Shown here one piece after another: positions 25,614 to 64,000 of a DNA stretch of 64,000 bases. This DNA is from Rhizophagus irregularis (Eukaryota > Glomeromycota > Glomeromycetes > Glomerales > Glomeraceae): contig NC_089429.1 of assembly GCF_026210795.1 (NCBI RefSeq), positions 62,001 through 126,000 on the forward strand. The letters run 5' to 3'. The position numbers and the translations under genes were made by a program. The stretch's first letter is position 1. Every line of letters starts with the position of its first letter. The notes under the pieces are model-generated. The model worked only from the letters and a program-made list of their open reading frames with translations, made no database searches and had not been told where the DNA came from.

Positions 25614-25663
25614 TAAAACACAATGATAAAAACAGTCGGGGAGATAAGATTTGAAGAAGAAAA

Positions 25664-35416: not shown

Positions 35417-35597
35417 CACTACAGCCCGCGATTACCTAGCACCGATAGTACAGTTGTTTACCCCAAGTGGTATACTTTGTAGTGACCACTCAGACAGGAA
35501 GTAGCAGGCATCTGTCCAGGATCACCCCTTATGGTGGGTATCAACCACTAGGGATCACCAACTAGGACCCAAGGAGTAGGGAATCGAACCCCATAGC

Positions 35598-35952
35598 CAG
35601 GGTTGGGAAATGTAGTACTGTACTGTACCAGTACAGTTAGTACAGTACATACAGTACAGTACTGTACTGAGTTTTTTTAGTACAAGTACATTTTTTTATA
35701 TAAATTACAGAGGTATTTTTAATCATATATACCCTGTTTTAAGTGGTCCAGTGATTAGATTTCAATAAAATTAAGCTTATTAGATTCATCTCAATGAGAG
35801 GAATTTAATAGTATTTATTTTATCATAAATGAATCAAAATAACTTTATTAAATATATGGTATTTAAAATTTTAAGTACAATGTACTAACTGTACTGTACT
35901 GTACTGTACTGTACTGAAATTTTACCTTGTACACCATATTTTCCCAACCCTG
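35598..35952. mobile_element. 355-bp hAT-type MITE
   Basis: The ends CAGGGTTGGG and CCCAACCCTG are perfect inverted repeats. CCCATAGC at 35590-35597 and 35953-35960 is an 8-bp target duplication. Both features are classic for hAT elements. The interior near both ends is built from GTACTGTACT repeats. It interrupts the second tRNA-like head of the SINE copy. Confidence 0.9.
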
Positions 35953-36440
35953 CCCATAGCCATACTACCTGTTCTGTGCACAAACACCTTGATTGGTCTA
36001 AGACCTAACAGAAAGTCTAACTACCACTAAGACATTGCACCCTCAGCTTTACCATCTAGGACGACCATCTAGCCATTACTGACCCCAAGCGGTATTGTAG
36101 AGTGACCACTTGGACAGGAAGTCCCCCTCAAGGTATAGTAGTGACCTCAAGAACAAGACTGCGCACATGCCAATGGCCTCATAGGGAACATTAGAAGGAC
36201 ACCATGACCCTTAGTTGAAATGTGCGGCCTAACCATACACACTAATTCACCATGATGCAGTCCAACTACACTAATCCCTGTACCTTCACGCTATTGGTTG
36301 TAGCGTCTGCAGTAAAATTCTTTTTATTTCCATGGTCATGGGAATCGAACCTGCGACCTCACCATACTCAGGCTTAATGAGGGTCTCAGTGACTAACCAC
36401 CAAGATAGGGTGACCAACCCTACAGTTTTATCCTTTTCCG

Positions 36441-37778: not shown

Positions 37779-37929
37779 ACAGTTTTATCCTTTTCCGATC
37801 ACTGGCTGACAAGTTATTCAACAAAATGTTAAACATCGGCATTATAATATTTCTTGATTTACGTTTACTGCACCATTTAACATTTTGCTAGATTTCTCGG
37901 TACCTAGTGATTGTAAAAAGACGATTTAT

Positions 37930-38300
37930 AGCTCGTTGGAATCGCCTCATCGAGACGAATCGAATGGTGGTAAGCTCATCTCTCTGTGATCAATATTGAT
38001 GGAGTTATTACTTAAAAACAATTTAATATTTTTTAATTTCGGAAATTGATCTAGTGATTGGATTTTGATGTATTTTATACCATTAGATTCGTCTCATCAA
38101 GACGAATCGAATGGTAGTAAGATCGTCTTTCTAGGATCAATATTGACAGAGTTATTACACAAAAACCATTAATATTTTTTTAATTTCAGAAATTAATATA
38201 GTGATTGGATTTCGACGTATTTTATACCATTAGAACCGTCTCATCAAGACGAATCGAATGGCGGTAAGATCATCTCTCCACGATTAATATTGGCAAAGTT
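37930..38300. repeat. Tandem repeat of about 143 bp containing GACGAATCGAATGG
   Basis: GACGAATCGAATGG, preceded by TCGTCTCATCAA-like sequence that makes a small hairpin, recurs at about 37957, 38100 and 38250. An older unit lies at 34842-34860 on the other side of the SINE and LINE B insertions. Each unit continues with a GATCAATATTGACAGAGTTA-like and an ATTTCAGAAATTAATATAGT-like block. Confidence 0.75.
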
Positions 38301-38407
38301 ACAATACAATAAAGTTTTAAGTATAATTCTGGCTAAAATTATGTTAATTTTTGGCCGGAATTATGATATACAAATATAAGAAATTTTTTATATAGTCACA
38401 TCTCTTT

Positions 38408-38422
38408 ATAATCACCAAATAT
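38408..38422 (+). repeat. First of six copies of the shared 15-bp target ATAATCACCAAATAT
   Basis: Identical copies lie at 38408-38422, 39427-39441, 39543-39557, 47549-47563, 55564-55578 and 61641-61655. They separate, in order, a SINE, a truncated SINE and LINEs C, D, E and F. Each element is therefore bounded by the same direct repeat. Confidence 0.95.
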
Positions 38423-38429
38423 ATGGGTT

Positions 38430-38515
38430 GGTCACCCTATCTCAGTGGTTAGTCACTGAGACCCTCATTAAGCCTGAGTATGGTGAGGTCGCAGGTTCGA
38501 TTCCCATGACCACGG
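38430..38515 (+). promoter_or_regulatory. tRNA-like head 1 of the SINE (pol III A and B boxes)
   Basis: The A-box-like TATCTCAGTGGTTAG is at 38438-38452 and a perfect B box GGTTCGATTCC at 38494-38504. GGTCA (38430) can pair with TGACC (38507), TCTC with GAGA as a D stem, and CTCA with TGAG around an AAG-containing loop. The T stem is poor, so it is a tRNA-derived promoter and not a functional tRNA. Confidence 0.75.
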
Positions 38516-38810
38516 AAATAAAAAAGAATTTTACTGCGGATGCTACAACCAATAGCGTGAAGGTACAGGGATTAGTGTAGTTGGACTGCATCATGGTGAA
38601 TTAGTGTGTACAGTTAGGCTGCACATTTCAACTAAGGGTCATGGTGTCCTTCTAACGTTCCCTATGAGGCCATTGGTATGTGCGCAGTCCTGTCTTTGGC
38701 GTCACTACTATACCTTGGGGGGACTTCCTGTCCAGGTGGTCACTCTACGATACCACTTGGGGTCAGTAATGGCTAGATGGTCGTCCTAGATGGTAAAGCT
38801 GAGGGTGCAA

Positions 38811-38905
38811 TGTCTTAGTGGTAGTTTGACCTTCTGTTAGGTTTTAGACCAACCAAGGTGTTCGTGCACAGACAGATAGCTTGGTGATTGGGTTCGATTC
38901 CCTTC
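38811..38905 (+). promoter_or_regulatory. tRNA-like head 2 of the SINE (pol III A and B boxes)
   Basis: The A-box-like TGTCTTAGTGGTAG is at 38811-38824 and a B box GGTTCGATTCC at 38891-38901 inside GGGTTCGATTCCC. The spacing is longer than in head 1. No cloverleaf is evident. Confidence 0.6.
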
Positions 38906-39441
38906 TCTGATGGGCCCTGGTTGGTGATTCCTGGTGGTTGATACCCACCATAAGGGATGATCCTGGGTAACACCTACAAGCTTACTGTTCAGGTGGTCAC
39001 TACAAAGTATACCACTTGGGGATTACAACTGTACTATCGGTGGTGGGTAATCGCAGGCTGTAGTGGCCTTTGAGTGAGACTTGTTACCTAATATGGTGGT
39101 ATGGAAGGGGTCTAGATGTTTGAAGGTTATCTGACGAAAGTCCTCCGTGACAGTAGTAGTGGTGAGGGGTTTATAATAGTAGCCATTACAGTATCATGCA
39201 ACGGATTAAAGGACGAGTAGGGTGGTGTTCTTCCGATTCAAAGGCCTTCGGGTCCCTGGGGTATGCCTGAATGTTGGACGGGCTGGATAAGTTGTCTTGG
39301 TTAAAAAGGTGGCCTTGATGACATCTGGTGGTTCAATGATGGCGAGGATACGAACGACCTACCTCCATAACCTTCAATAGAGGGTGCGGAAAGTAGTGGC
39401 CACTAAACGTACAATACACTTGTAAAATAATCACCAAATAT

Positions 39442-39542
39442 TCATGGCTTAGTGAGGATGATGCAATGAACGACCTACCTCCATAACCTTCAATAGAGGG
39501 TGCGGAAAGTAGTGGCCACTAAACGTACAATACACTTGTAAA
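39442..39542 (+). mobile_element. 5'-truncated SINE copy, 101 bp
   Basis: It repeats the last part of the SINE before it almost exactly (GAACGACCTACCTCCATAAC ... ACACTTGTAAA) after a diverged start. Both sides carry ATAATCACCAAATAT. Confidence 0.8.
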
Positions 39543-39696
39543 ATAATCACCAAATATGAGGATCATCGCAACTCTTTCCTGAATTTTTGAAAATACTAAT
39601 AAAATTTTATTTTGAAATTTTCGTTCGAAAATTTCTAAGTGCTCGTTCAAATACTAATATTCCACAGTTGCTTTCCTCTTTACTGAGCTTTAAACT

Positions 39697-41814
39697 ATGA
39701 CTACACCTCCAGCTCCTTCTGTTATTAACCCGGATATTCCGCCGCCACTGTGTCCTGTTGTTTCTACTCCCTCTGGAGACCGACCTTTATTTCCCACTAA
39801 TACCGCTGGCACGCCTAACAAACGTTCACGCGTTGTCTCTGATGACGCTATGAATGTTGATATAACTTCACCTTCTGCTTCGACTCCCAACCTTATTTCT
39901 ACCGCTCCCTCAGGTCTTCCTGTCAACAAAGTCCAAGTGATTACCTCTTCTCGTAATACTACTACCCCTGTTGAAACTGTTGACGCTTCCATCCATGCTC
40001 CCTCCAACACTGATGGCAAAGGCAAAGCTGTTGCTTTTGATATCCCAGAACGACGACCATCTCCCGATGGTAATGCTGCTGCTATCAAATCCGCACCCTC
40101 TCGTTATCATGCTGCGGCCTATCTACGTGACGCACCTTACGCGTTTACAGCTAAATTCACCACCAATCGCTCTATGTGTGACGAAGTGGATTGTTCACTC
40201 TCCCGTTATCCCTCTTATGGTGCCCGTGCACGTTGCGACGGATCAGGCAATAACAAAAAGATCCTTGTCTTCTTCAATGATCAGCATGACTATACCGATT
40301 GTGTCAGTTCACCACATGCAGATCTTCTCAATTTAGCCTTTATTTATTATTCCCCTGCAGATGCCAAACTCAATGACGAAGCGAAGTCTTTGTTTGTTAC
40401 TGATATCCCACTTTTCCTAACTGAGACTCAAGTCCGTCAGGCCTTTTCCCGTTATGGCACTGTAACCAAGTGCAAACTTACTCCTCGAAAACACTATTAC
40501 AATAGACATATCCAATTTTCCTCCGCGGACGCAATTACCCAATTTAATGATATTTGGGCGATCGTTTGTCTTGGTAATTCTTTACGCGTCTGTCCGGCAT
40601 CTTATTCAAAATCCCAACGTGATAGCCGCAGAGAACATGTTGCTATCCTTGCCAGCATTCCCAAAAATATTAAAGAAACTGATCTGATAGATATTGCCAC
40701 TCAAGTTAACGCTAAGGCTCTTAACGTTCCTTTATCTATCAATTCATACAAACCTAAACCCTATGCATATTTGAATTTCTCCTCGTTCGAATCTCTTGAG
40801 GCCGCCAAAGAAATGACCGTGGCTTTCCGCGGCAAAGGTTTAACTTGGCACCCTCCTAATGAAGTTCACACTTTATGTCATGTCTGCGGACGTTCGGGTT
40901 GCTCTCCTTCTGTATGTAGCCCTCGCCCTACACGTAAAGTAGACGATCGCCTTAACAAACTTTACTCTCGCTTCAATGCTGGCCCTAGACGTGGCCGTCA
41001 GGATTCACGACAATCACGTGACAACTCTAATTCCCGTTCAAGATCACGTTCCAATTCTCGATCTCGCTATAATAATTCCTCTTCATCCCGCTCTAACAAC
41101 AGCAATAATAATTCTAACACTTCTCGTCCCAATACTCCTCGAAGTAGTAACCGGACTAACAATAATAATAATAATCCCAGAAACAATGAAAATTCCAGAC
41201 CTGCTCAACCTTCGCACAAACCTCATCCTATTATTTCTACAACACCTGCTTCTTCATCTAATGATCCTGCCCCTACGCTTCCTCAACATATTATTGATGA
41301 ATTAAAGGCGCAGATTAAAGAGATCGCTAACACCCTTCATACTCTCGAGGAAACTGTCTCTTGGATGAATGATACTATCACGTCCCATGAATATAGGCTA
41401 TCCGAACTTGAATCAGCGATGAATTATGACAACCCTGGTGACTCTGATTTGTATCCGCCTCGTGATGATTATGAAAATCAGGATCATTCTTATAATAATG
41501 GATGGGATGATGTTTCAACACATGACACAAATTCTGGATTCAACCTTCCTCCCCATACTTCCTCTTCTCTTATGGACGTTTCTCCTGATGCTTCCTTCTC
41601 AGCTTTGGATCCTAGCTCCGTCCTATCAAGACGACATGTCCCCTTACCTGTCTCCCGACCTACTAATATCACCCCCGACGCTAATACTTCCCGTTTGCAA
41701 TCAGAAATTTTTAATGTTACTAATATACAAATGAATCTTTCTGCCCAACTTGATTCAATTATGGAAAAATTGGACTTCTTCTCTCCTTCTAAACCCTCCC
41801 CTTCCAATGATTGA
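39697..41814 (+). CDS. LINE C ORF1: intact RNA-binding protein
   Basis: 705 residues from ATG 39697. The Pro/Ser/Thr-rich N-terminus is followed by two RRM-like folds: KSLFVTDIPLFLTETQVRQA near 230 and KPYAYLNFSSFESLEAAKEM near 354. A zinc knuckle CHVCGRSGCSPSVC lies at about 394-407 with the spacing C-x2-C-x4-C-x4-C, so Cys replaces the usual His. Then come a basic Ser/Arg/Asn-rich stretch (440-510), a predicted coiled coil (IDELKAQIKEIANTLHTLEE, near 535) and a final helix (NLSAQLDSIMEKLDFF). Expected role: LINE RNA binding and transport in cis. The other array copies are broken, so this is the only ORF1 here that could act for them in trans. Confidence 0.9.
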   Translation: MTTPPAPSVINPDIPPPLCPVVSTPSGDRPLFPTNTAGTPNKRSRVVSDDAMNVDITSPSASTPNLISTAPSGLPVNKVQVITSSRNTTTPVETVDASIHAPSNTDGKGKAVAFDIPERRPSPDGNAAAIKSAPSRYHAAAYLRDAPYAFTAKFTTNRSMCDEVDCSLSRYPSYGARARCDGSGNNKKILVFFNDQHDYTDCVSSPHADLLNLAFIYYSPADAKLNDEAKSLFVTDIPLFLTETQVRQAFSRYGTVTKCKLTPRKHYYNRHIQFSSADAITQFNDIWAIVCLGNSLRVCPASYSKSQRDSRREHVAILASIPKNIKETDLIDIATQVNAKALNVPLSINSYKPKPYAYLNFSSFESLEAAKEMTVAFRGKGLTWHPPNEVHTLCHVCGRSGCSPSVCSPRPTRKVDDRLNKLYSRFNAGPRRGRQDSRQSRDNSNSRSRSRSNSRSRYNNSSSSRSNNSNNNSNTSRPNTPRSSNRTNNNNNNPRNNENSRPAQPSHKPHPIISTTPASSSNDPAPTLPQHIIDELKAQIKEIANTLHTLEETVSWMNDTITSHEYRLSELESAMNYDNPGDSDLYPPRDDYENQDHSYNNGWDDVSTHDTNSGFNLPPHTSSSLMDVSPDASFSALDPSSVLSRRHVPLPVSRPTNITPDANTSRLQSEIFNVTNIQMNLSAQLDSIMEKLDFFSPSKPSPSND

Positions 41815-44800
41815 ACACCTATTTATATCGGATGCATCACAGGGATTTCATCCCCCTAATAGTGCGATACCTAATAATAATAGTCCTAATAATCCCTCTT
41901 CTCCTTCCTTTTCTTCCCCTCTTATTAACTTTGGACAAATCAATGTTAATGGATTATGTTCCCCGATTCGACAATTGCATTTGTTAAATTATTTCCTTCA
42001 TTCTTCTTTTGGCGTTTTATCTTTAAATGATACTCGTTTTATTTCCTCTAGTGCTAAATTTATTTATCAAAATGAACATTCCCAACATAATTTTAAGTCC
42101 TATTGGACTCCTTCCCCTTCTAATTCACGACCTCATGATGGTGTTGGTCTTTTACTTCGCCATCCTTTATATAAACATGTTCAGAAAATTGATCCTTGGA
42201 AAGGTCGTCTTTTAAAATTAGATCTTTTTTTCCATCAAACTAAAATTTCCATCATTTCTGTTTACATTCCTCCTTATCACTCTATTCATTATAAAGAACG
42301 TGATGCTATTTTTGCCCAACTTAATTTATGGCTTGATAAAGCCCGTTCTAATAATTACCATGTTGTAATACTTGGTGATCTTAATGCAGATGAAATTTCA
42401 CATTCACATCTTCCTCAACATCATTTAAAAATTGTACGATTACTTTCTTCTCGATATTTTACGGATCATCAATCCCATATCTCATCAATTTCTGGTCCTA
42501 GTCCTACCTTTTATCATCAGAATGGTTCTTCAAGACTTGATTATATTTGGTCATCCCCTGGATTTCCTGCTCCTGGTCTTTTTTCTCAAGTTGAAACTTG
42601 TCCTAAGTTGAATGATAATCAATTTACTGATCACCGTGTACTTATTACGACCTTTGATTTTAGCTCTTGTTTTGCTACTTTAGCTAAAGCTAGATTAAAA
42701 CAAAAAAGCGAACAACGCACCATCTTTCTTTACAAAAATTTGAAAGATGACACTTGGGACAAATTTTCCAATGAAGTAAATTCACGTCTTTAGTTATACT
42801 TGACCACACACCACCCTTCAGTATCTTCACTTTCAGCTCTTTCATTGGACAAACTTTGGCACACTCTTAAACGTTCTATTCTTGGTGGTGCCATTGAATT
42901 TCTACCATTTCAACATGTATCCAATACCCATCACCATAAATATCCTCCTGAGCTTACGATGCTTATTGCTATCAACAAATTCTTGGATAGATTATTGTTC
43001 AAATTGACCACGTCTCGGCCTAGTCGTCCAGCTCAAATTTCACAGATGATTAATTCTTTGTCTACACAACTAATTCTTCTGAAATCTTTTTTAAAAAATT
43101 ATACTATACCTATTTATAGTACGACACCACTTCCTGCTTTTATCAAATTTTTGCGTTCGCAAAAAGCTTTGGTCTCTGCATATCTTTCCACACAATTTCA
43201 TCAACATTGTGTAGATTCCATAGAGTATTATACTGCTCTTAGAGATGAACATTTCTCTACGTCTCCAGGCTCTTTTATTTCTTCAGCCCTATCAGTGGAA
43301 CATCGTTCTATCGTCCTTGATAGAGTTTTGGTGGTTATTGACTCCAAACCCACATTACTTACTGATCCTTTGGATATCAAGCAAGCTGCTATAAAACATT
43401 TCCAATCGGTTGTTACTCCTCCTTTGGTCCAGTATTCTTCTACAGATTCATTTCCTTCACGATGGCAACGAGCATATACTCCTCTTCCTGATATTGATTC
43501 GTCATTATTCAACTCGGTCATGTCTCCTATTCTGGAAGATGAATGGAAGAACACCCTCAATTCCATGCCTAATAACAAGGCCTCCGGTCCTTCCAAAATT
43601 TCTTATGAAATGCTCAAACATCTAACTGGCGAAGCTCTCAACTTATCCCTTGTTTTAGCTAACGCCTGCCTCATTCATGGAGACATCCCTGCTGATTGGC
43701 GTGAAGCGCTTGTTTATCCCATTTTTAAGCCTCATGAATTTGACGCCCAATTAAAGAATACGCGACCTATCACTTTGTTAGAAACCGTATGGAAATGCGT
43801 GGTTAAGTTCGTTACAACTAGACTTTCAAAAATCCTGGCTGACAATCAAGTGCTCCAAGGTGGTAATTTTGCTGGATTGCCAGGTGGTTTCACTGACATT
43901 CCTATTAAGATGCTCGATGCTATTATTCATCAACGACGCTTTGATAAAAGCGATGACCAAGAATTATGGATTGTTTCTCAGGACATTTCTAAGGCCTTTG
44001 ACTCAATTGATTTAAACATGCTTAGACTAGCTTTAATCCGTCTGCATATACCGTCTCTATTGATTAAATTTATCATCAACCTTTTTACTAGACGTAATAA
44101 TAAAATTATTACCCATCATGGTGATACTTCTGGATATAGAGTGAAAATTGGTATTGACCAGGGTGAAATTATTTCTCCATTATTATGGGTTATTTACTTG
44201 GATCCTTGCTTACTACACTTAATCGTGAAGCTTGTGATCCCTTTATTTTGAAATCTTCTGCATTATTGGATTATTCTCCAATTGAATATAAACAACATAA
44301 TCTTCCTGTTTCGCATATTACATTTATGGATGATTCTACTTTAATTGCTTCATCTAAACGAGGAATTGAAGATCGCCTTTCCATTACTGCTGAATTTTAT
44401 ACTCTAAATAATACTCAAGCAAATTCAGCAAAATATATCCTTCTTTCTTCTGAACAATTCTCTCAAACTGTAGAGTTTGATCTTTTTCCGTCTCCTTTAA
44501 TTACAACTTCTACCCTTACTTTAAAGGCTTTAGCCTTATCAACATCTTTCCGTTTTTTAGGGGTTTGGTTCTGCCTTTCGGCTTCCTCTCGCTTTGTTCA
44601 CAACCAAACTACTTCCATGGTTAAAGATATGGCTGCTTTACTTAGTCCTAAAAAGCTTTTGGCTCAACATGTGGCTTATCTTTATAATGTTGTCCTGCTT
44701 CCGAGACTAGAATTTCGCCTACAAACCACATTATTTGCAGAATCCACCATTAATCGCATGGTTTCTCCAATGCTTTCTCTTATTCGTCAAAAGGCTGGTT

Positions 44801-47285
44801 TGGCCTCAGTCACTCCTCTTTCTGCGCTTTTCACACTGTTGCCGTTCTCTATCCAGCAAGCGTTTGGTCGATTTCTATCATCTCATGTGGCTTCATGGCA
44901 AAGAGTTTTCTCTCATCCCTCATTTAAGGTTTTTGCCAATTATATGATTACCTATCTCCAAGGATTTTTGGATTGTGATGCCTGTCCCTCTACTATTGAT
45001 TTGGAACCATGGTCCCATACCTTTTCTTTACGAACACATTCTTTGTTCAATTCTTTATTGTTCTCTTCTCGCTTAAATATCACGTGGTCTTTATTGTTCC
45101 GACCTCTGAGGAAAGATTTACGTCCGGCAATTCCACTCCGGTCTATTTTACCGAACGATTTATTTACTTCCATGAATAAAGTTCGGAAGAAATTTTGCAC
45201 TCGTTTTCTTGCCCAATTGATTACACCGTGTGGCTCTCGACTTCTCCCATGGAAAGATTTACGTTTTCTTAAACGTGTCTCGAACAAAGGATCCGTGCTT
45301 GCTTGGTTTAATTATTTATTTAATCTTGTTGTTATTCCTAATTCATCTTTCTTTTTTATTTTACAAACCATTTAGAATTCCTAATTCCCATACTGTAGCT
45401 TCTATTTCTTTTATAGACATTAGTCGAAATTATTGGTTTAACCCTCAATGGGCTATTTCTTTTAATCGCAATACTAACTCTTTCTTTGTTGGCCGTGTGA
45501 TTACTACCTATCCTGCTCCACGTAACAAAGCTCTTATTTCATATTGGATTGCGTCTTCGGTTGATGATTTGCTTTCTGATTTTACTGCATGCCAAGGTTG
45601 TGCCTCTGCTCTCCCGCGATCCTCTACCTCTAAGACGTTGCTTAAACGTTGTCCTTCTGAAAAGTGCTTCTCTTATGTTCCGTTATCAAGTTTGATCCGT
45701 TATCCTACGAAACCTCGTACTTATATACATGCGGATACTCGCTCGGTTTCACTTTCTGCCTCGTTAGGCTATGCCAAATCTCTTTTATTATTTCATCTTT
45801 TTGCTCCGGATCGGTTACCTTCTACGAATAAACAAGTGCCTAGGATTTCTGATATCCAACTTCCTTCTTTGGTGTCTACACTCTATATTGATGGTTCCTT
45901 CCTTCCTCCTTCTAGTCATCCGGTATCCTCGATGGCTTATGCATGGACTGCTATAGATCCTGATGGATTTATTTTGGAATCCCACTATAATAATATTTTT
46001 TCCATTTTTCATTCTGCTCTACGCTCAGAAATTTTTGCTTTATTGCATGGATTGGACTCCCTCCCTCGAAATTCAAAGATTACTGTCACCACTGATTGTG
46101 CTCAATTACTTTCTTTATGGTCTTTGTATGTGGATGCCCTTTTATTCCCAGAATGCTTAACGAATCCAACCACTTTTTGTGGTTCTCCATTCGCACTATT
46201 ATGTTGCAAAAGAATCTGGATGTTACCTTGATCAAGGTTCCTGCTCATGCTGACGACCCTTTGAATAATCATGTGGATGCATTAGCCAAAGCCGCTCATA
46301 CTGATTCACATCTTTCTTCTTGTCCACAATTGGAATTGATGGCTCCTTGCATTTTACAATTTAATTCCTTACCTGTGGATATGAATATCCGGAAATTTAT
46401 TAGAGATATTTTTAACGCTAAAAGTCTTCTAACTCTTGCTGTATTACCAAGATTTAATTCCTATTCCTCAACTTCTGATATTGATTGGGCTTGCACCAAA
46501 TTTTGTCTCAATAACAATAAACAATTTGCCTCTCATTGGAATGGCCGTTCCGAATTTTGTGGTTTCCGTATCAAACTACTATTAGATATGCTTCCGACGC
46601 TTACAACTCTTCAGAGACGAAAGCCTCATGTTTATAATCCAAGTTGGCTTTGTCCCAATGTAACTCTTTTCCTGAGACTTTAGACCACTTGTGGACTTGT
46701 CCTTATATCTTACCAGAATTTAGCCCTTTAAATACCTTTAAAACACTTTTCTTGGCTCTTCGGACTAATTATCTTGACAAACTCCTTTCCGCGTCATCTT
46801 TAATACCATTACCGGACTCTTTTGCTGCTGCATTTATGGCTCTTGATTGTTGGGATTGTGACCCTCCTTCATTTTCTTGCCTGAGACTCGTACGAGGACT
46901 TATACCGATATCCCTTACAGAATTTCTTGGAACCTATTTTTCTTCATTTACCATATGGTCTATCTTAGATACACCTTTGCACGACTTTCATTTTGACCTT
47001 TATGTCCAAATCTGGTTGTGCCGTTCCATTTTTTTTCATCATTGGGAATTAGCTCAAGGCATTACAAAAAAAATGAAATCGTCAGCTTTTGGGCCTTCTT
47101 CTTTTCTTTGTCCTTCCTCTAACATTCCTCTTGACTCTTCGACACCTTCCTTGGCGACAGCTTCCTTGGATTCCTGGGTTTCTTGGGTTTCCTCTTCTAT
47201 AATCCGTGGGGGATCTTGGATTTCGCAGTTGGATTTTTGGCGCCGCTTAACAGTTCAGCCTCTACTTAGGATTTCTTTTTGGTAA
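41807..47285 (+). pseudogene. LINE C ORF2: endonuclease-RT-RNase H, one stop and four frameshifts
   Basis: ATG 41807 overlaps the ORF1 stop (ATGATTGA). Endonuclease: FGQINVNGL, VILGDLNADE, TDHRVLITTF. RT: QDISKAFDSIDLNMLRLAL, IGIDQGEIISPLLWVIYLD, FMDDSTLIASSKRGIED. RNase H: YIDGSF, LRSEIFALLHGL, TTDCAQL, VDALAKAAH. Zinc: PNVTLF / CNSFPETLDHLWTC. Tail: IIRGGSWISQLDF. Against copies D and E the lesions are TAG at 42791-42793 (from GAG) and one-base changes near 44205, 45370, 46138 and 46652. The total would be about 1820 residues. It cannot make replicase now, but the lesions are few. Confidence 0.9.
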
Positions 47286-47704
47286 CGGATTGGATCTTAG
47301 GACATGCTGGATAGTTGACTCACACTGGCCTTCAAGTAAAGTTGGGGTATGCGTATTCTGTAATAGTTTAGTTTTTCTTTACTTAATTTTATTTTGTTTA
47401 GATTTCTTTACTTGTATGAATCGTGAAGCTAGTTCTTTTTATTTTTTGTTTATTTTCTATATTTGATATTTGTAATATTGTTCGATTTGTTTATTGTACT
47501 TTCGTTTAAAAATAATAATAAAAGATAATGTCATAAGACTGTTTGCTCATAATCACCAAATATGAGGATCATCGCAACTCTTTCCTGAATTTTTGAAAAT
47601 ACTAATAAAATTTATTTTTGAAATTTTTGTTCAAAAATTTCTAAGTGCTCGTTCAAAATACTAATATTTCCACAGTTGCTTTCCTCTTTACTGAGCTTTA
47701 TACT

Positions 47705-52800: not shown

Positions 52801-55298
52801 CAGAAGGCTGGTTTGGCCTCAGTCACTCCTCTTTCCGCGCTTTTCACACTGTTACCTTTCTCTATTTAACAAGCGTTTGGTCGATTTCTATCATCCCATA
52901 TGGCTTCATGGCAGAAAATTTTTTCTCACCCTTCATATAAGCTCTTTGCCAATTATATGATTACTTATCTCCAAGGTTTTTTGGACTGTGATGCCTGCCC
53001 TTCTACTACTGACCTGGAACCATGGTCCCACACTTTTTCTTTGCGAACACATTCTTTATTTAATTCTTTATTGTTCTCTTCTCGTTTAAATATCACGTGG
53101 TCTTTATTATTCCGACCTCTGAGGAAAGATTTACGTCCGGCGATTCCATTCCGGTCTATTTTACCAAAAGATTTATTTACTTCCATGAAAAATGTTCGAA
53201 ACAATTTTGGTACTCGTTTCCTTGCCCAACTGGTTTTTCCGTGTGGCTCTCGACTTCTCTCATGGAAAGATTTACGCTTTCTTAAACGAGTATCGAACAA
53301 AGGATCTGTGCCTGCTTGGTTTAATTATTTGTTCAATCTTATTGTTATTCCTAATTCACCTTCTTTTTTTATTTTATAACAATTTAGAATTCCTAGTTCT
53401 CATACTGTTACTTCTATTTCCTTTATAGATATTAGTCAAAATTATTGGTTTAACCCTCAATGGGCTGTTTCTTTTAATCGTAATACTAACTCTTTTCTTG
53501 TTGGCCATGTGATTACTACCTATCCTGCTCCACGTAATGAAGCTCTTATTTCACATTGAATTGCGTCTTCGGTTGATGATTTGTTTTCTGATTTTACTGC
53601 ATGTCAAGGTTGTGCCTCTGCTCTCCTGCGATCCTCTACCTCTAAAACACTGCTTAAACGATATCCTTCTGAAAAGTGTTTCTCTTATGTGTCTTTATCA
53701 AGTTTGATCCGTTATCCGACGAAACCTCGTACTTATATACATGCGGATACCCGCTCGGTTTCACTTTCTGCCTCGTTAGGCTATGCCAAATCTCTTTTAT
53801 TATTTCATCTTTTTGCTCCGGATCGGTTACCTCCTATGAATGAACTAGTGCTTAGGATTTCTGATATCCAACTTCCTTCTTCGGTGTTTACACTTTATAT
53901 TGATGGTTCCTTCCTTTCTCCTCCTAGTCATCCGGCATCCTCGATGGCTTATGCATGGACTGCTATAGATCCTGATGGATTTATTTTGGAATCCCATTAT
54001 AATATCATCTCTTCCACTTTTCCTTCTGCTTTACATTCAGAAGTTTTTGCTTTATTGCACGGATTGGACTCCCTTCCTCGGAATTCAAAGATTACTGTCG
54101 CCACTGATTGTGCCAATTACTTTCTTTATGGTCTTCGTATGTGGATGCTCCTTTTATTCCCAGAATGCTTAAAGAATCCAACCACCTTTTGTGGTCCTCC
54201 ATACGCACTATTATGTTGCAAAAGAATCTGGATGTTACCTTAATTAAGGTTCCTGCTCATGCTGACGACCCTTTGAATAATCATGTGGATGCATTAGCTA
54301 AAGCCGCTCATACTGACTCACATCTTTCTTCTTGTCCACCATCGGAATTGATGGCTCCTTGCATTTTACAATTTAATTCCTTACCTGTGGATATGAATAT
54401 CCGGAAATTTATTAGAGATATTTTTGACGCCAAAAGTCTTTTAACTTTTGCTGTATTACCAAGATTTAATCCCTATTCTTCAACTTCTGATATTGATTGG
54501 GCTTGCACCAAGTTTTGTCTCAATAACAATAAGCAATTTGCCTCTCATTGGAATGGCCGTTCCGAGTTTTGTGGTTTTCGTATCAAATTACTTTTAGATA
54601 TGCTTCCAACGCTTACAACTCTTCAGAGACAAAAGCCTCATTTTTATAATCCAAGTTGGCTTTGTTCTCAATGTAACTCTTTTCCTGAGACTTTAGACCA
54701 CTTGTGGACTTGTCCTTATATCTTACCGGAATTTAGCCCTTTACATACTTTTAAAACACTTCTATTGGCTCTCCGGACTAATTATCTTGCCAAATTCCTT
54801 TCTGCGTCGTCTTTAATACCTTTACCGGACTCTTTTGCTGCTGAATTTATAGCTCTTAATTGTTGGAATTGTGACCCTCCTTCATTTTCTTGCCTGAAAC
54901 TCGCACGAGGACTTATACCGATATCCCTTACAGAATTTCTTGGAAATTATTTTTCTTCACTTACCATATGGTTTATCTTAGATACACCTTTGCACGACTT
55001 TCATTTTGACCTTTATGTCCAAATCTGGTTGTGCCGTTCCATTTTCTTTCATCATTGGAAATTAGCTCAAGGCATTACAAAAAAAATGAACTCGTCAGCT
55101 CTTGGACCTTCTTCTATTCTTTGTCCTTTTTCTAACATTCCTCTTGACTCTTTGACACCTTCCTTGGCGACAGCTTCCTTGGATCCCTGGGTTTCATGGG
55201 TTTCCTCTTCTATAATCCGTGGGGGATCTTGGATTTCACATTTGGATTTTTGGCGCTGCTTAACAGTTCAGCCTCTACTTAGGATTTCTTTTTGGTAA
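49819..55298 (+). pseudogene. LINE D ORF2, five stops and one frameshift
   Basis: ATG 49819 opens a frame of about 680 codons covering the whole endonuclease (INFGQININGL, VILGDFNADE, TDHRVLITAFD) and the start of RT. Stops: TAA 51859 (from CAA), TAG 52171 inside the IGIDQGE motif (from CAG), TAA 52867, TAA 53377 and TGA 53557 (from TGG). A base is lost near 54112. FMDDSTL and the RNase H motifs remain. The last 396 codons (54108-55298), including CSQCNSFPETLDHLWTC and the tail, are open. Confidence 0.9.
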
Positions 55299-55718
55299 CT
55301 GATTAGATCTTAGGACATGCTGGATAGTTGACTCACACTGGCCTTCGGGTAAAGATGGGGTATGCGTTTCTGTAATAGTTTAGTTTTTCTTTACTTAATT
55401 TTATTTTGTTTAGATTTCTTTACTTGTATGAATCGTGAAGCTAGTTCTTTTTATTTTTTATGTTTATTCTCTATATTTGATATTTGTAATATGGTTCGAT
55501 TCGTTTATTGTACTTTTCGTTTAAATTTAATAATAAAAGATAAAGTCAAAAGACTGTTTGCTCATAATCACCAAATATGAGGATTATCGCAACTCTTTCC
55601 TGAAAACTTGAAAATACTAATAAAATTTATTTTTGAAATTTTCGTTCAAAATTTTTAAGTGCTCGTTCAAAATACTAATATTTCCCCAGTTGCTTTCCTC
55701 TTTACTGAGCTTTATACT

Positions 55719-57675
55719 ATGACTACACCTACAGCTCCTTCTGTTATTAACCCAGATATTCCGCCGCCATCACGTCCTGATACTTCAGCTCCTTCAGGAG
55801 ACCGACCTTTGTCTCCTACTAATACCGCTGGCACGCCTAATAAACATTCGCGTATTGTTACTGATGATGCTATGAATGTTGATATAACTTCGTCCTCTTC
55901 TCCTGCTCCCTCCCTTATTTCTACCGTTCCTTCTGGTCTTCCTGTCAACAAAGTCCAAGTGATTACCTCTCCTCATAATACTACTACTCCTGTTGAAACT
56001 GTTGACGCTTCTATCCATGCTCCCTCTAACACCTGATGGTAAAGGCAAAGCTGTTGCCTTCGATATTCCGGAACGACAACCATCCTCCGATGGTAATGCT
56101 ACTGCTATCAAATCTGCACCCTCTCGTTATCATGCTGCGGCCTACCTACGTGACGTGCCTGACACATTCAAAGCTAAATTCACCACCAATTGCTCTATGT
56201 GTGACGAAGTGGATTGTTCACTCTCCCATTATTCTTTTTATGGCGCTTGTGCACGATGCGAAGGATCAAGCGATAACAAGAAAATCCTTGTTTTCTTCAA
56301 TAATCATGATGATTATACCGATTGTGTCACCTCCCCATGTGCCGATTTCCTTGATTTGGCTTTCAGTCATTACTTCCCTGCAGACGCTAAGCTCAGTGAT
56401 GAAATGAAGTCTTTGTTTGTCACTGATATTCCACTTTTCCTAACCAAGACTCAAATCCGTTAGGCATTTTCCCGATATGGCACTGTAATCAAGTGCAAAC
56501 TTACTCCTAGGAAATATTACTATAATGATTGTTGGTCCGATTGCTACTTTGGGAAGTATTGGGACGAGAAGTATTAGTATTATTGTTGCTGTTGTTGGAA
56601 CGGGATGAAGAGAAATTATTATTGCAGGATCTAGAATTGGATCACGATTTTGAACGGGAATTGGAATTGTCACGTGATCAGCGCGAGTTTTGATGACCAC
56701 ATCTAGGGCCAGCATTGAAGCGAGAATAAAGTTTGTTAAGGCGATCATCTACTTTCTGTGTGGTACGAGGATTGCATACAGAGGGAGAACAACCAGGGCA
56801 CCCATAAACGTGGCATAAAGTTTGTGCTTTATTGGGAGGATGCCATGTTAATCCTTTACCACAGAAAGCTACGATCATTTCTTTGGCAGCTTCAAGAGAT
56901 TCAAACGATGAGAAATTCAAATATACATAGGGTTTAGGCTTGTAGGAGCTGATAGATAGAGGAACGTTAAAGGCCTTAGCGTTAACTTGAGTAGCAATTT
57001 CTAACAGATTAGCTTCTTTAATATTCTTTGGAATGCTGGTAAGGATAGCAACATGTTCTCTGCGGCTATCGCGTTGAGATTTTGAAAAAGATGCCGGGCA
57101 AACACGTAAACAATTACCAAGGCAAATGATCGCCCAAATATCATTAAATTGGGCAACTGCATCTGCAGAGGAAAATTGGATATGTCAATAATAATAATCC
57201 TTGGAACAATGATAATTCTTCCGGTTCTACTCAACCTCCACACAATCCTCATCCTACCAATTCTACACCACCTACTTCTCCATCTGATAATTCTGCCCAT
57301 ACACTTCCTCAACATATTATTGATGACTTAAAAGTGCAGATCAAAGAGATCGCTAACACCTTTCATACTCTAAAGGAAACTGTCTCTTGGATGAATGATA
57401 CTATCACGGCCCATGAGTATAGGCTATCTGAGCTTGAATCAATGATGAATTATGACAACCCTGGTGACTCTGATTTATATCCGCCTCGTGATGGTTATGA
57501 AAATCATACTCATTCTTATGATAATGGATGGGATGATGCCCCAACCCAAGACACGAATTCAGGATTCAATCTTCCTTCCCATACTTCTCCTTCTCTTATG
57601 GATACTTCTCCTGATGCTTCCTTTTCAGCTCTAGATCCTAACTCCGTCTTGTCAAGAAGACATGTCCCCTTACCT
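55719..57675 (+). pseudogene. LINE E ORF1, frameshifted, partly inverted and cut short
   Basis: ATG 55719. An extra C near 56033 shifts the frame. CAG became TAG at 56461-56463. The segment 56528-57186 is inverted and carries the second RRM and the knuckle (CHVYGCPGCSPSVC, one Cys lost) on the minus strand. The helical C-terminus resumes at 57187 and stops at the deletion point. Confidence 0.9.
56528..57186 (-). other. 659-bp inversion inside LINE E ORF1
   Basis: Turning this segment round restores collinearity with LINEs C and D at both joints (TATAATG joined to GACATATCC, and CCAACAAT joined to AATAATAAT) with no evident loss or gain. The minus-strand frames in this interval are the ORF1 protein. 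Confidence 0.95.
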
Positions 57676-57896
57676 CACACGTCAAATGATCAAAAATAGG
57701 CAAAAAAAATGGCGCAAATTATACATGCTGCTCAAATTATTTTGGGATGCCATAATTATAATTTGGGATGCTATAATTCATTCGGTTTATATATAATTTA
57801 CTATGTAAAGTGCCAAAATAATTTGGGATGCCATAATTGAATTTGGGATTTTACTTATAATTACGGCAGTCCAAAATAATTTGGGTGGCATGTATA
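57676..57896. mobile_element. Foreign segment filling a deletion in LINE E
   Basis: It begins with the end of the MITE family seen at 35217-35416 (CACGTCAAATGATCAAAAAT, then AAAAAAAATGGCG). It continues with repeats of TTTGGGATGCCATAAT and inverted AAATTATTTTGG / CCAAAATAATTT motifs. LINE DNA from the ORF1 end to RT start, about 2 kb in C and D, is missing here. Confidence 0.7.
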
Positions 57897-60800
57897 GTGG
57901 TTACAACTCGGCTTTCAAAAATCTTAGCTGACAATCAAGTGCTCCAAGGTGGTAATTTTGCTGGATTGCCAGGCGGTTTCACTGACATTCTTATTAAGAT
58001 GCTTGATGCTATTATTCATCAACGACGTTTTGACAAAACTGATGACCAAGAATTATAGATTGTTTTTCAGGACATTTCTAAGGCCTTTGACTCAATTGAT
58101 TTAAACATGCTTAGACTGGCTTTAATTCGTCTGTATATACCGTCTTTATTGATCAAATTTATCATTAACCTTTTTACAAGACGTAATAATAAAATCATTA
58201 CACATCATGGTGATACTTCTGGATATAGAGTTAGAATTGGTATTGATCAAGGTGAAATCATTTCTCCATTATTATGGGTTATTTACTTGGATCCTTTGCT
58301 TACTACACTTAATCGAAAAGCTTGTAATCCCTTTATTTTGAAATCTTCTGCGTTATTGGATTATTCTCCAATTGAATATGAATGACACAATCTTCCTGTT
58401 TCGCATATTACATTTATGGATGATTCTACTTTGATTGCTTCATCTAAACGAGGAATTGAAGATCGCCTTTCTATTACTGCTGAATTTTACACCTTAAATA
58501 ATACTCAAGCAAATTCAGCAAAATATATTCTTCTTTCTTCTGAACAATTCTCTCAAACTATAGTGTTTGATCTTTTTCCATCTTCCTTAATCCCGATTTG
58601 TTTCCTTACTTTAAAGGCGTTAGCTTTATCCAAGTCTTTCCATTTTTTAGGTGTCTGATTTTGCCTTTCAACTTCCTCTCGTTTTGTTCATAATCAATGT
58701 ACTTCGATGGTCAAAGATATGGCTGCTTTACTTAGTCCCAAAAAACTTTTGGCACAACATGTAGCTTACCTTTACAATGTTGTCTTATTGCTGAGATTAG
58801 AATTTCGCCTACAAACCACATTATTTGCTGAATCTACCACTAATCGCATAGTTTCTTCAATGCTTTCGCTCATTCAACAGAAGGCTGGTTTTGCTTCAGT
58901 CACTCCTCTTTCTGCGCTTTTCACACTGTTACCTTTCTCTATTTAACAAGCGTTTGGTCGATTTCTATCATCCCATATGGCTTCATGGCAGAAAATTTTT
59001 TCTCACCCTTCATATAAGCTCTTTGCCAATTATATGATTACTTATCTTCAAGGCTTCCTAGATTGTGATGCCTGTCCTTCTACTATTAATTTGACACCAT
59101 GGTCCCATACGTTTTCTTTACGTACACATTCTTTATTCAATTCTTTATTATTTTCTTCTCGATTGAACATCACATAGTCTTTATCGTTCCGACCTCCGAG
59201 AAAAGATCTACATCCAACTATTTCACTCCGGTCCATTTTACCTAAAGAATTATTTATTTCTATGAAAAATGTTCGGAAAAACTTTTGTACTCGTTTCCTT
59301 ACCCAACTAGTTACTTTGTGTGGCTCTAGACTTCTCTCATGGAAAGATTTACGCTTTCTTAAACGAGTTTCGAACAAAGGATCTGTGCCTGCTTGGTTTA
59401 CTTATTTATTTAATTTTATTGTTATTTCTAATTCTCCTTCCCTTTTTGTTTTACCGCAATTTAGAATACCTAATTCCCATACTGTAGCTTTTATCTTTTT
59501 TATAGATATAAGTCAAAATTATTTGTTTAATCCACAATAGGCTATTTCTTTTAATCGCATTACTAACTCTTTCCTTGTTGGCTGTGTGATCATTACCTAT
59601 CCTGCTCCGCGAAATGAAGCTCTTATTTCACATTGGATTGCGTCATCTGTTGAATGACTTATTATCTGAATTTACTGCATGTCAAGGTTGTGCCTCTGCT
59701 ATCCCGCGATCCTCTACCTCTAAGACACTGCTTAAACGATGTCCTTCTGAAAAGTGCTTCTCTTATGTGCCTTTATCAAATCTTATCCGTTACCCTACGA
59801 GACCTCGTACTTATATACATGCGGACACTCGTTCGGTCTCACTTTCCGCCTCATTAGGCTATGCCAAATCTCTATTATTATTTCATCTTTTTACTCCAGT
59901 TCGATCACTTCCTATGAATTATCAAGTGTCTAGGATCTCCGATATTCAACTTCCTTCTTCGGTGTCTACACTATATATCGATGGCTCTTTCTTTCATTTT
60001 TCTAGTCATTCGATACCTTCGATAGCTTATGCATGGACTGCTATCGATTCTGATGGATTTATTCTTGACTCCCATTATAATATCATTCCTTCTTTTTTCC
60101 CTCTGCATTGCGTTCTGAAATTTTTGCTTTATTGCATGGACTGGACTCCCTCCCTCAGAATTCCAAGATTACTGTCGCTACCGATTGTGCACAATTAATT
60201 TCCTTATGGTTTACGTATGTGGATGCTTCCTTCATTCCTAGAATGCTTAAAGAATCCAACCACCTTTTATGGTCTTCGGCACGGGCTATTACTTCACAAA
60301 AGAATCTGGAAGTTACTTTTATCAAGGTTCCTGCTCACACTGACGATTCTTTGAATAATCATGTGGATGCATTAGCTAAAGCTGCTTATATTGACTTGCA
60401 TCTTCCTTCTCGTCCGTTGTCGGAATTGCTAACTCCTTGCATTTTACAATTTAATTCTTTACCTGTGGATATGAATATCCAGAAATTTATTAGAGATATC
60501 TTTGACGCTAAGAGCCTTTTAACTCTTGCTGTATTACCAAGATTTAATTCTATTTCTTCTACTTCTGATATCAATTGGGCTTGTACCAAATTTTGTCTTA
60601 ATAATAATAAGCAATTTGTCTCTCATCGGAATGGCTATTCTGAGTTTTGTGCTTTCCATATCAAGATTTTATTAGATATGCTTCTGACACTCACAACTCT
60701 TCAGAAATGAAAGCCTCATATCTATGACCCGAGTTGGCCCTGTCTTCAATGCAACTCCTCTCCTGAGACTTTAGACCACTTATGGACTTGTCCGTATATT

Positions 60801-61376
60801 TTACTCGAATTTAGTCCTTATAATACCTTCAAAACACTTCTGTTGGAACTTAGAATTGTGTGTATTGAGAAATTTCTTTCTGCGACTCCTTTAATACCTT
60901 TACTGGACTCTTTCGTTGCAGAATTTACGGCTCTTGATTATTGGGAATGTGACTTTCCTTCGTCTTCTTGCCTGTGACTTACACGTGGACTCATACCGAT
61001 ATCCCTTACAGGATTTCTTGGACTTTACTTTTCATCATTCGTTATATGGTCTATTTTAGATACATCTTTACACGACTTTCACTTTGATCTTTATGTTCAA
61101 ATCTGGTTGTGCCGTTCTGTTTTCTTTTATCATTGGGAATCAGCTCAAGGCATCTCTAATAAAATAAAATCGTCCGTTATTGGACCTTTTCCTATTTCTT
61201 ACCCTTCCTCTCAAATCTCTCCTGATTTCTCGACACTTTCCCTGGCGATAGTTTTCTTGGATTCCTGGGTTTCTTGGGTTTCCTCTTATATAATCCGTGA
61301 GGGATCTTGGATTTCGCACTTGGATTTTTGGCGCCGCTTAACAGTTCAGCCTCTACTTAGGATTTCTTTTTGGTAA
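57897..61376 (+). pseudogene. LINE E ORF2 without endonuclease, many stops
   Basis: It starts within RT (KILADNQVLQGGNFAGLPGG). IGIDQGEIISPLLWVIYLD and FMDDSTLIASSKRGIED are intact. Stops occur at about 58056, 58383, 58658, 58944, 59175, 59538, 60708 and 60976, several from TGG or CGA. Frameshifts lie near 59652 and 60100. RNase H (YIDGSF, LRSEIFALLHGL, VDALAKAA) and tail (IREGSWISHLDFWRRLTVQP) are recognisable. Confidence 0.85.
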
Positions 61377-61795
61377 CGGATTGGATCTTAAAACATGCTG
61401 GATAGTTGACTCACACTGGCCTTTAGGTAAAGTTGGGGTATGCGTTTCTGTAATAGTTTAGTTTTTCTTTACTTAATTTTATTTTGTTTAGATTTCTTTA
61501 CTTGTATGAATCGTGAAGCTAGTTCTTTATATTTTTTATGTTTATTTTCTATTATTTGTTTTTGTAATATTGTTTGATTTGATTATTGTACTTTTCATTT
61601 AAATTTAAAATAAAAGATATAGTCATAAGACTGTTTGCTCATAATCACCAAATATGAGGATCATCGCAACTCTTTCCTGAAATCTTGAAAATACTAATAA
61701 ATTTAATTTTTGAAATTTTCGTTCAAAAATTTCTAAGTGCTCATTTAAAATACTAATTATTCCCCGTTGCTTTTCTCTTTACTGAGCTTTATACT

Positions 61796-63905
61796 ATGAC
61801 TACACCTACAGCTCCTTCTGTTATTAACCTGGATATTCTACCGCCACCGCGTCCTGTTACTTCTGCTCCCTCTGGAGACTGACCTTTATCTCCCACCAAT
61901 ACTGCTGGTGCACCAACCAAACGATCACGTACTGTTTCTGATGACGCTATGAATGTTAATATAATTTCGCCCTCTGCTTTTGCTCCCACACTTATTTATA
62001 CCGTTCCTTCTGGTCTTCCTATCAACAAAGTCCAAGTGATTACCTCTCCTCATAATACTACTACTCCTGTTGAAACTGTTGACGCTTCTATCCATGCTCT
62101 CACTAACACCAGTAGTAAAGGCAAAGCTGTTGCCTTCAAAGTCCTGGAACGACAACCATCCCCAATGGTAATGCTGCCGCTATCAAATCTGCACCCTCTC
62201 GTTATCATGCTGTAGCCTATCTACACGACGCACCTGACACGTTTAAAGCTAAATTCACCACCAATCGATCCATGTGTGACGAAATGGATTGTTCACTCTC
62301 CCACTACCCTTCCTATAGCACCCGCGCACGTTGTGATGGATCAGGCTATAACAAAAAAATCCTTGTCTACTTCAATAATCATGAAGATTTTACCGATTGT
62401 GTCAACTTCCCACGTACCAATCTCCTCGATTTGGCCTTTACACATTATTCCCCTGCAGATGTCAAGCTTAGCGACGAAGCGAAATCTTTATTCGTCACCG
62501 ATATCCCACTTTTTCTAAACGAAACACAAGTCCGTTAGGCGTTTTCTCAATATGGTACTGTGATTAAGTGCAAACTTACCCCTAGGAAACATTACTGTAA
62601 TGGACACATCCAATTTTCTTCTGCTGATGCAGTTACCCAATTTAATGATATCTGGGCGATCATTTGCTTAGGCAATTCTTTACGTGTCTACCTGGCATCT
62701 TTCTTAAAATTCCAACGTGATAGTCGTAGAAAACATGTTGCTATCCTTGCTTGCATTCCAAAAAAATATTAGGGAAGCTGACCTTTTAGAAATTGCTAAC
62801 CAAGTCAACGCTAAGGCTCTTAACGTCCCCCTTTCTATCAGTTCTTACAAGCCTAAACCCTATGTATATATGAATTTCTCCTCATTTGACACTCTTGAAG
62901 CTGCAAAAGAGATGACTGTAGCTTTCCGCGGCAAAGGGTTGATGTGGCACCCTCCCAATGATGCACACACTTTATGCCATGTTTGTGAGAGTCCTGGTTG
63001 TTTCCTTTCTGTGTGTAATCCTCGTTTTACACGTAAAGTGAATGATCGTCTTACCAAATTATATTCATGCTTTAATGCTATTCCTCAACGTGGTCATCAG
63101 GATTCGCACCAATCACATGACAAATCCAATTCCCATTCAAGATCGCGATCCAATTCTAGATCCCGCAATAATTTTTTTTCACCCCGATCCAGCAATAGCA
63201 ATAATAATCCTAATATTTCTCGTCCTGAAACCTCCTCATATAACAACCAGAATAATAACAATAATAATAACAAACCCAGAAATAATGAAACTTCTTCAGG
63301 TTCTACTCAATCTTCACACAAATCTTAGCCTAATAAATCTATACCTGTTTCTCCATCTAACAATTCTGCCTTTACGCTTCCTCAACATATTATTGATGAT
63401 TTAAAAGCGCAGATTAATAAGATTGCTAATACCCTCTATACTCTCAATGAAACTGTCTCCTGGATGTAGGAAACTATCACGCAACATGAGTATAGACTAT
63501 CTGAGCTCGAATCAATGATGAATTATGATAATCCTGGTGACTCAGATTTATATCTGCCTCATGATGATCATGAAAACTATTCCCATGGTAATGGATAGGA
63601 TGATGAACCAACCCGAAAAACGAATTCACGATCCAATCTTCCTCCTTATACTTCCTCTTCTCTTATAGACACCTCTCCTAATACCTCCTTTTCAACTTTG
63701 GATCCTAACTCCGTCTTATCTAGTAGACATGTCCCTTTACCAAACTCATGATCCAACATTATTGCCCCTGATGCTACTACTTCCCGTCTACAATTGGAAA
63801 TTTCTAATGTTACTAATGTACATAAGAATCTTTCTGCTCAACTTGGTTTGATTATGGATGAATTGGACTCCTTCTCCCTCAAACCTTTCCCCTTCTAATG
63901 ATTAA
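61796..63905 (+). pseudogene. LINE F ORF1, heavily mutated
   Basis: ATG 61796. TGA near 61879 (from CGA), TAG at 62536-62538 (from CAG), a frameshift near 62765, TAG near 63326, TAG near 63466 and TAG near 63597 (from TGG). RRM-like blocks and a CHVCESPGCFLSVC knuckle can still be read. It ends at TAA 63903-63905. Confidence 0.85.
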
Positions 63906-64000
63906 ACACCAACTTAATTTGGGTGATTTACAGGGATTTTACCCTACTAATAGTGCGATACCTGATAATGCTAATCATAATAATTTTCCCCTTTCCTCTT
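63898..64000 (+). pseudogene. LINE F ORF2, 5' end only
   Basis: ATG 63898 overlaps the ORF1 stop by 8 nt, as in C and D. Only about 34 codons are inside the window. Its state is listed with the broken copies, but this part alone does not prove disruption. Confidence 0.6.

Follow-up and report, generated by a model that had tools for sequence, protein, structure and literature searches.

Target-primed reverse transcription is established for long interspersed nuclear elements (LINEs), among them R1 and R2, the LINEs of rRNA genes, and the telomere-repeat LINEs (TRAS/SART and the like), which stack head-to-tail. Tx1L of Xenopus laevis reportedly has a fixed site in the DNA transposon Tx1D, so that LINEs aimed at a DNA transposon are already known. 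Excerpts of PMC4640811 list transposons among the known LINE targets and mention one Utopia family that occurs occasionally in tandem in U2 genes. Here, a stretch of 64,000 nucleotides from the genome of Rhizophagus irregularis (C1:62001-126000, in the following the window) is described, in which LINEs and short interspersed nuclear elements (SINEs) stand in head-to-tail arrays inside a DNA transposon. The favoured explanation, with a probability of about 0.9, is that site-specific non-long-terminal-repeat (non-LTR) retrotransposons insert within this transposon and that their arrays arose by serial target-primed insertion into a regenerated target and not by tandem duplication. This explanation is carried by a tree of the LINE copies, by empty target sites and by a count of LINE 3′ ends. 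All genome-wide counts refer to the 146.7-Mb assembly of 32 contigs.

Three LINE families are distinguished in the window. The LINE of the copies C to F at site 1 is called family A, a LINE fragment at site 2 family B, and a LINE at site 3 family G. The coordinates are given in Table 1.

Site 1, its host transposon and the LINE of family A

The 15-mer ATAATCACCAAATAT (site 1) was found six times in the window as an exact match, always on the forward strand. With up to two mismatches the number of matches is also six, compared with a mean of 0.65 and a maximum of 3 in 100 shuffled sequences. From the flanks, the order of the units was read as full SINE, SINE stub and LINE copies C, D, E and F in a single orientation. 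The six positions, this order and the common orientation had been noticed in an earlier sequence-only reading and were recovered by pattern search and flank reading, as was a target common to LINE and SINE, since both types are bounded by site 1. The description of this target as a unique AT-rich sequence had to be abandoned: 646 exact copies (345 + 301) are present in the genome, versus 1 for the reversed-pattern control, and site 1 is a fixed site in a multicopy DNA transposon.

The host of site 1 is an element with terminal inverted repeats (TIRs). Its uninterrupted copy in locus L046 has a length of 963 bp and contains site 1 at positions 908-922, which leaves 41 bp to the right end of the host. 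The left TIR is preceded by TA in 11 of 11 host copies inspected, and the longest stop-free stretch of the L046 copy comprises 69 codons. Judged by these features, the host is a non-autonomous, TA-flanked DNA transposon, possibly of the Tc1/mariner type. Empty sites, with host sequence on both sides and no retroelement, were counted 396 times at up to two mismatches (control 0), and their flanks make up one TIR element. In the loci around the first 30 listed 15-mers, the flanks were also inspected by eye; in 30 of 30 cases the left flank belonged to the host or to the 3′ end of a LINE or SINE, and in 30 of 30 the right flank belonged to the host, a LINE or a SINE.

In the window, the retroelements occupy the space between two parts of the host and the space after the second part, which contains a tandem repeat at 37939-38301. 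Copy F is broken by an insert of about 4.8 kb and then by another host transposon copy with TA on both sides; it resumes after this inner host copy and has its 3′ end at C1:159562. The window array is closed on both sides because this 3′ end adjoins the right end of the host transposon, and one transposon of 963 bp is thereby stretched to about 63 kb. Copy E is rearranged, with a spacing of 6,077 bp versus 8,006 bp for copy C and 8,015 bp for copy D; its inverted segment of 692 bp is located inside the region of the first open reading frame (ORF), and about 1.9 kb is absent further on. Ahead of the SINE stub, the 26 nt without SINE match (39442-39467) are possibly extra letters from the 5′ junction.

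Matches to apurinic/apyrimidinic (AP)-type endonucleases (PF03372/PF14529) were obtained for frames of the copies C and D, and a match to reverse transcriptase (RT; PF00078) for copy C. The frame of copy D matches the LINE-1 ORF2p chain 8sxt_A (E 6.8e-9), reflecting RT similarity. These domains mark family A as an AP-endonuclease non-LTR retrotransposon. LINE/L1-Tx1 is named among the R. irregularis families in excerpts of PMC11075540.

The survey of 3′ ends covered exact occurrences of the 14-mer AAGACTGTTTGCTC, with which family A ends; 115 are present in the genome, and 100 of these places were listed. The exact 15-mer adjoins 85 of the 100, a 15-mer with one mismatch adjoins 14 (L016 and 13 of 14 fetched loci), and in one case (L084) an insert of 6 nt precedes the exact 15-mer. 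The flank check proposed with the sequence-only reading has thereby been carried out for these ends, and all 100 listed 3′ ends (of 115) are located at the common target and not at unrelated ones, which marks family A as apparently site-specific. When up to two mismatches are allowed, the genome has 130 places at which a LINE 3′ end is followed by the 15-mer and 76 at which a SINE 3′ end is (control 0 in both cases). The 5′ truncation points of family A vary and its 3′ ends are constant; with the target duplication, the hallmarks of target-primed insertion are present.

Arrays of this kind recur in the genome. In total, 42 runs with at least two retroelement 3′ ends on the same strand and within 9.5 kb of each other were identified on 23 contigs, using typed lists of LINE 3′ ends (100 of 130), LINE starts (62 of 62) and SINE 3′ ends (76 of 76). 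LINE and SINE occur together in 25 of these runs, 10 consist of LINEs only and 7 of SINEs only; among the LINE-only runs, C1:157377/159562 is not a head-to-tail pair but reflects the nesting inside copy F. Runs of at least two junctions amount to 55, including 13 with one listed 3′ end, mostly a single LINE. The orders LINE-LINE, LINE-SINE, SINE-LINE and SINE-SINE were all found. Among the 62 full-length LINE starts, at least 17 directly follow a LINE 3′ end (a lower bound, as 100 of 130 such ends are listed), 11 follow a SINE 3′ end and 34 follow neither. A LINE 3′ end is located within 15 kb downstream of 44 of the 62 starts, in 37 cases at a distance of 7.9-8.03 kb. In 27 loci, the left flank was read as host (16), LINE (7) or SINE (4).

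Origin of the array members and rival explanations

The relationships of the array members were derived from a tree of 32 LINE 5′ regions, comprising the window copies C to F and 28 loci taken from the copies most similar to copy C. L001 and L002 were omitted, as they are identical with the copies C and D, and L006 is included in the tree and absent from the distance table. None of five arrays grouped together. A single clade of the window copies C to F was rejected by the approximately unbiased (AU) test (p = 0.00077), and the same constraint was rejected for the four other arrays (p = 8.9e-37, 1.5e-45, 1.4e-11 and 2.9e-5). A comparison with dispersed copies had been suggested by the sequence-only reading; in it, C to F are not mutual closest relatives, which supports its proposal that successive insertions re-used the duplicated target. 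The distances agree in part: for L009 on C13, a copy on C17 lies at a distance of 2.6%, and the three copies nearest to L009 do not include L022, its neighbour in the array. The window LINE copies are 8.9-19% apart in five pairs, the nearest row to copy D being copy C (8.9%). On this sequence evidence, the members of the five arrays tested are separate insertions.

Furthermore, the 5′ junction letters were compared in 13 neighbouring full-length pairs, several of which have a SINE between the two LINEs, and are unlike in 8 of them, close to the fraction of 0.62 expected for random pairs. The set omits C1 D-E, C1 E-F, C19 and C5 L085-L016, pairs with a start outside the list of LINE starts; the second C13+ start, likewise unlisted, was read from L030. 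The 15-mers themselves vary from locus to locus. The four junctions read on C5 (1.817-1.844 Mb) all end in CAAATAA, for LINE and SINE alike, ATCAACAAA is present in all six LINE and SINE junctions read on C12 (3.792-3.815 Mb), and both LINE junctions read on C27 end in AAATAC. One variant per locus across element types indicates that the target is borne by the locus, as is predicted for a duplicated target and not for a sequence carried by the element. The fixed target, the empty sites, the 15-bp duplication, the separate origins of the members and the retroelement-free transposons with the 15-mer can be read directly from the DNA.

In the proposed mechanism, a family A LINE would nick site 1 of the host transposon with its own AP-type endonuclease and would be inserted by target-primed reverse transcription, with duplication of the 15-bp target. 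Because the duplication contains the re-used sequence, each insertion would leave two targets, one intact copy on each side of the new element, and the locus would remain open to the next insertion. Head-to-tail arrays would be extended by one insertion at a time, without recombination, and tail-1 SINEs would enter the same site, so that the arrays would be mixed. Target-primed reverse transcription agrees with the endonuclease and RT domains, the constant 3′ ends, the 5′ truncations and the duplication of 15 bp. Target-primed synthesis and cleavage by an AP-type endonuclease that the element itself encodes are inferred, and so is the insertion of the tail-1 SINEs by the family A enzyme.

The SINEs were characterized by their motifs and tails. 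The B-box-like motif GGTTCGATTCC is located at positions 72 and 469 of the SINE; the A-box pattern that was used gave no match upstream of the first B box, and ARAGORN predicted 0 tRNAs in the window. A single Rfam match of the SINE was below the threshold and was attributed to chance. A SINE of site 1 (window) and one of site 2 (L064) agree to 88.5% in the first 734 of 1004 positions and show no match thereafter; their 3′ tails are of type 1 and type 2, respectively. In the loci searched, which overlap and were fetched by site and therefore give biased counts, all 31 tail-1 matches that reach the 3′ end continue into site 1 (5 more fall short), and 11 of the 13 such tail-2 matches continue into site 2 (7 more fall short); in these loci fetched by site, neither tail was found at the site of the other. 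The other two tail-2 matches come from overlapping loci and represent a single place, at another position of this host transposon. Near C1:213.4 kb (L041/L065), the same host transposon carries a tail-2 SINE at GTAAAAAGACGA, a sequence similar to site 2 (GGAAAAGGATAA); this SINE is possibly an off-target insertion in the same element. Folding of the 3′ ends resulted in small weak hairpins only and was not used as evidence.

Alternatively, a single site-specific insertion could have been multiplied into an array afterwards, through unequal crossing-over or tandem duplication between copies of the 15-mer or of the LINE. The head-to-tail order and the one 15-mer variant common to each of three loci would be expected equally in this case, and the identical 5′ junctions in 5 of the 13 neighbouring pairs as well as the position of copy C as the nearest row to copy D speak for it. 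We nevertheless regard it as improbable for the arrays as a whole, given that the one-clade constraint was rejected in 5 of 5 arrays tested, that L009 is closer to a copy on C17 than to its array neighbour and that the orders of LINEs and SINEs are mixed; for the arrays tested, tandem duplication is disfavoured by the tree and by the 5′ junctions. An exact or near copy of the 15-mer on both sides of the copies read would likewise be seen if it were a short terminal repeat of the retroelement itself and not a target. The 396 sites without a retroelement, the presence of the 15-mer beside the 5′-truncated copies L048 and L054 and the common variants on C5 and C12, which track the locus and not the element type, leave this idea with a practically negligible chance; the empty sites and the locus-wide variants rule out the 15-mer as part of the element. 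Long similar repeats are difficult to assemble, and the tandem order might be an artefact of collapsed or joined repeats. This is very hard to reconcile with window LINE copies that differ by 8.9-19%, with runs that recur on 23 contigs, with both host ends closing the window array and with TA on both sides of the second host copy in copy F. A further alternative relates to the SINEs alone and does not conflict with the favoured mechanism: the site 1 SINEs may be carried by a LINE outside family A with the same target, or may be chosen via a read-through RNA that matches the target and not via a common tail. It would account for the same SINE body with different tails at different sites and for tails that are unlike copy D, the family B fragment and family G, but no other LINE 3′ end was found at site 1 in 30 of 30 loci, and we treat it as a tentative possibility.

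Some observations weigh against serial insertion by one enzyme as the full explanation. For 18 of the 62 full-length starts, no LINE 3′ end is present within 15 kb among those listed. The AU test of the C17 pair (p = 2.9e-5) depends on L006, which was flagged for its long branch and odd make-up. When the four pairs omitted from the junction comparison were read by eye, C1 D-E, C1 E-F and C5 L085-L016 were the same and C19 was different, which reduces the result to 9 differing pairs of 17. C10, C13 (4.38 Mb), C16 and C23 hold one or two variant 15-mers beside exact ones, which are taken as later private mutations. When the two SINE tails were compared with copy D, the family B fragment and family G, neither gave a hit at E values up to 0.5; the common enzyme for LINE and SINE assumed in the sequence-only reading consequently finds no support in the 3′ tails of the two. 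Some recombination may have occurred in arrays outside those tested.

A polarity of array growth is hinted at by the distances. For copies that adjoin the left side of the host, the distance to the nearest neighbour is smaller than for those that follow a LINE (16 vs 10; p = 0.034, one-sided Mann-Whitney test) or that follow a LINE or SINE (16 vs 15; p = 0.044). The sample is made up of the copies most like C and the test was devised after the distances had been seen, so that this is no more than a hint.

Further sites and features of the window

Table 1. Features of the window around sites 1, 2 and 3 (positions in the window).
Feature	Positions	Strand	Basis
Site 3 copy (TGGTTTTTGACCAGT) at 3′ end of family G LINE	19714..19728	-	
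Family G LINE, in terminal repeat of a different, palindromic transposon	19729..27926	-	
Palindromic transposon, both terminal repeats with site 3 (27927-27941, 28205-28218, 28252-28265)	27927..28265		
Host left part, host positions 1-294, left TIR at 34580	34580..34873	+	blastn 97.3% to L046; TIR match
Site 2 copy, leftmost, 1 mismatch	34861..34875	-	host comparison
SINE with tail type 2 at site 2; segment at about 35592-35964 without SINE match	34876..36424	-	
Site 2 copy, exact (CGGAAAAGGATAAAAC)	36425..36440	-	pattern match, flank reading
Family B LINE, 5′-truncated, at site 2, 3′ end ...GACTGTTTGTA	36441..37781	-	flank reading
Host middle part, host positions 281-922, 147-bp tandem repeats, ends in site 1	37781..38422	+	blastn 97.0% to L046
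Site 2 copy, exact	37782..37797	-	pattern match, flank reading
Site 1 copy 1 (ATAATCACCAAATAT)	38408..38422	+	pattern match
Full SINE, tail type 1, tRNA-like B box	38423..39426	+	flank reading, motif and tail comparison
Site 1 copy 2	39427..39441	+	pattern match
SINE, 5′-truncated: 26 nt without SINE match, then 75 nt of SINE 3′ end	39442..39542	+	
Site 1 copy 3	39543..39557	+	pattern match
LINE copy C, family A, full length; second ORF split into several frames	39558..47548	+	
Site 1 copy 4	47549..47563	+	pattern match
LINE copy D, family A, full length; 753-aa endonuclease-RT open frame 49600-51861	47564..55563	+	
Site 1 copy 5	55564..55578	+	pattern match
LINE copy E, family A, about 1.9 kb shorter, 692-bp inverted segment 56507-57198	55579..61640	+	
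Site 1 copy 6	61641..61655	+	pattern match
LINE copy F, family A, 5′ part; runs beyond window, interrupted	61656..64000	+	

Site 2 (CGGAAAAGGATAAAAC) is a second target in the same host transposon, located in reverse orientation at host positions 282-297. It has 191 exact copies in the genome (control 0). In 12 fetched loci, of which L061 and L062 overlap and come from the window itself, its downstream flank was empty host in 5 cases, a SINE in 6 and a 5′-truncated family B LINE in 1. In the window it bounds a second array in opposite orientation to that of site 1, in which a SINE and a LINE fragment are combined with three copies of site 2 (34861-37797). The segment without match within this SINE is probably another inserted sequence. 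Family B and family A (copy D) have 82% DNA identity over the last 0.4 kb.

Site 3 belongs to a different transposon, so that the family G LINE is a second example of this behaviour at another target. The terminal repeat occupied by the family G LINE is TGGTTTTTGACCAG, and the other repeat holds a scrap of 33 nt from a LINE 3′ end (28219-28251, forward strand). Family G contains an open RT-RNase H frame of 1751 aa (20358-25613) and open ORF1 frames, and its match to an endonuclease domain is under the cut-off of Pfam. The first 1000 residues of the 1751-aa frame are 100% identical to a named R. irregularis protein, and the endonuclease-RT part has 33% identity to copy D. The family G 3′ end followed by site 3 occurs 94 times in the genome at up to two mismatches, and the edge of the palindromic transposon followed by site 3 occurs 163 times (control 0 for both). 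Eight site 3 loci were read; tandem copies are present in L076 and L079, and an element of about 1.26 kb that ends at site 3 in L077 and L080. In a comparison of the L077 element with family G and the SINE, no match was obtained; right behind a family G LINE, it is possibly a third non-autonomous partner. Site 3 variants at neighbouring places often, though not always, agree.

Elsewhere in the window, at 13211-14299, a 50-bp unit that contains an inverted repeat is repeated in tandem about 22 times.

Comparison with known systems

A SINE and several LINE classes of R. irregularis have been catalogued in PMC11075540; in its main text, the terms 'target site', 'site-specific', 'nested', 'tandem' and 'TSD' occur 0 times. 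In the accessible part of the open-licence literature, no R. irregularis use of these targets, no tail-linked site choice of SINEs and no such mixed arrays were found, which is weak evidence for novelty.

Taken together, the balance tips slightly towards a scenario in which related LINE lineages would have shared out the genome's DNA transposons as private landing sites, with two such sites in a single transposon and one in the terminal repeat of another. SINEs would switch between sites by exchange of their 3′ tails, the same body being combined with tail 1 at site 1 and tail 2 at site 2. Each insertion would return one landing site more than it used, and the transposon copies would become growing safe havens that spare genes, with new insertions entering perhaps mostly on the left side of the host. 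Three families with three sites in one genome, with hundreds of empty and filled sites, provide a natural experiment on the target choice of LINE endonucleases, to which the SINEs belong as well, their body being common while the tail changes with the site. The system shows a way for retroelements to stack without hitting genes, and the order and the variants at the array loci could be used for dating insertions.

Family A resembles Tx1L in being an AP-endonuclease LINE with a fixed site within a DNA transposon. Set beside what is reported of Tx1L, the R. irregularis system comprises several related LINE families at different sites, of which two belong to a single transposon; SINEs occupy these two sites as well, and arrays that mix LINEs and SINEs recur. 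With R1/R2 and Utopia it shares a strict target in a multicopy sequence; in contrast to these, the target is another mobile element and the arrays are frequent and include SINEs. As in TRAS/SART, the elements stack head-to-tail because the target stays available, but here the target is no tandem repeat, and each new target copy would be the 15-bp duplication of the insertion itself.

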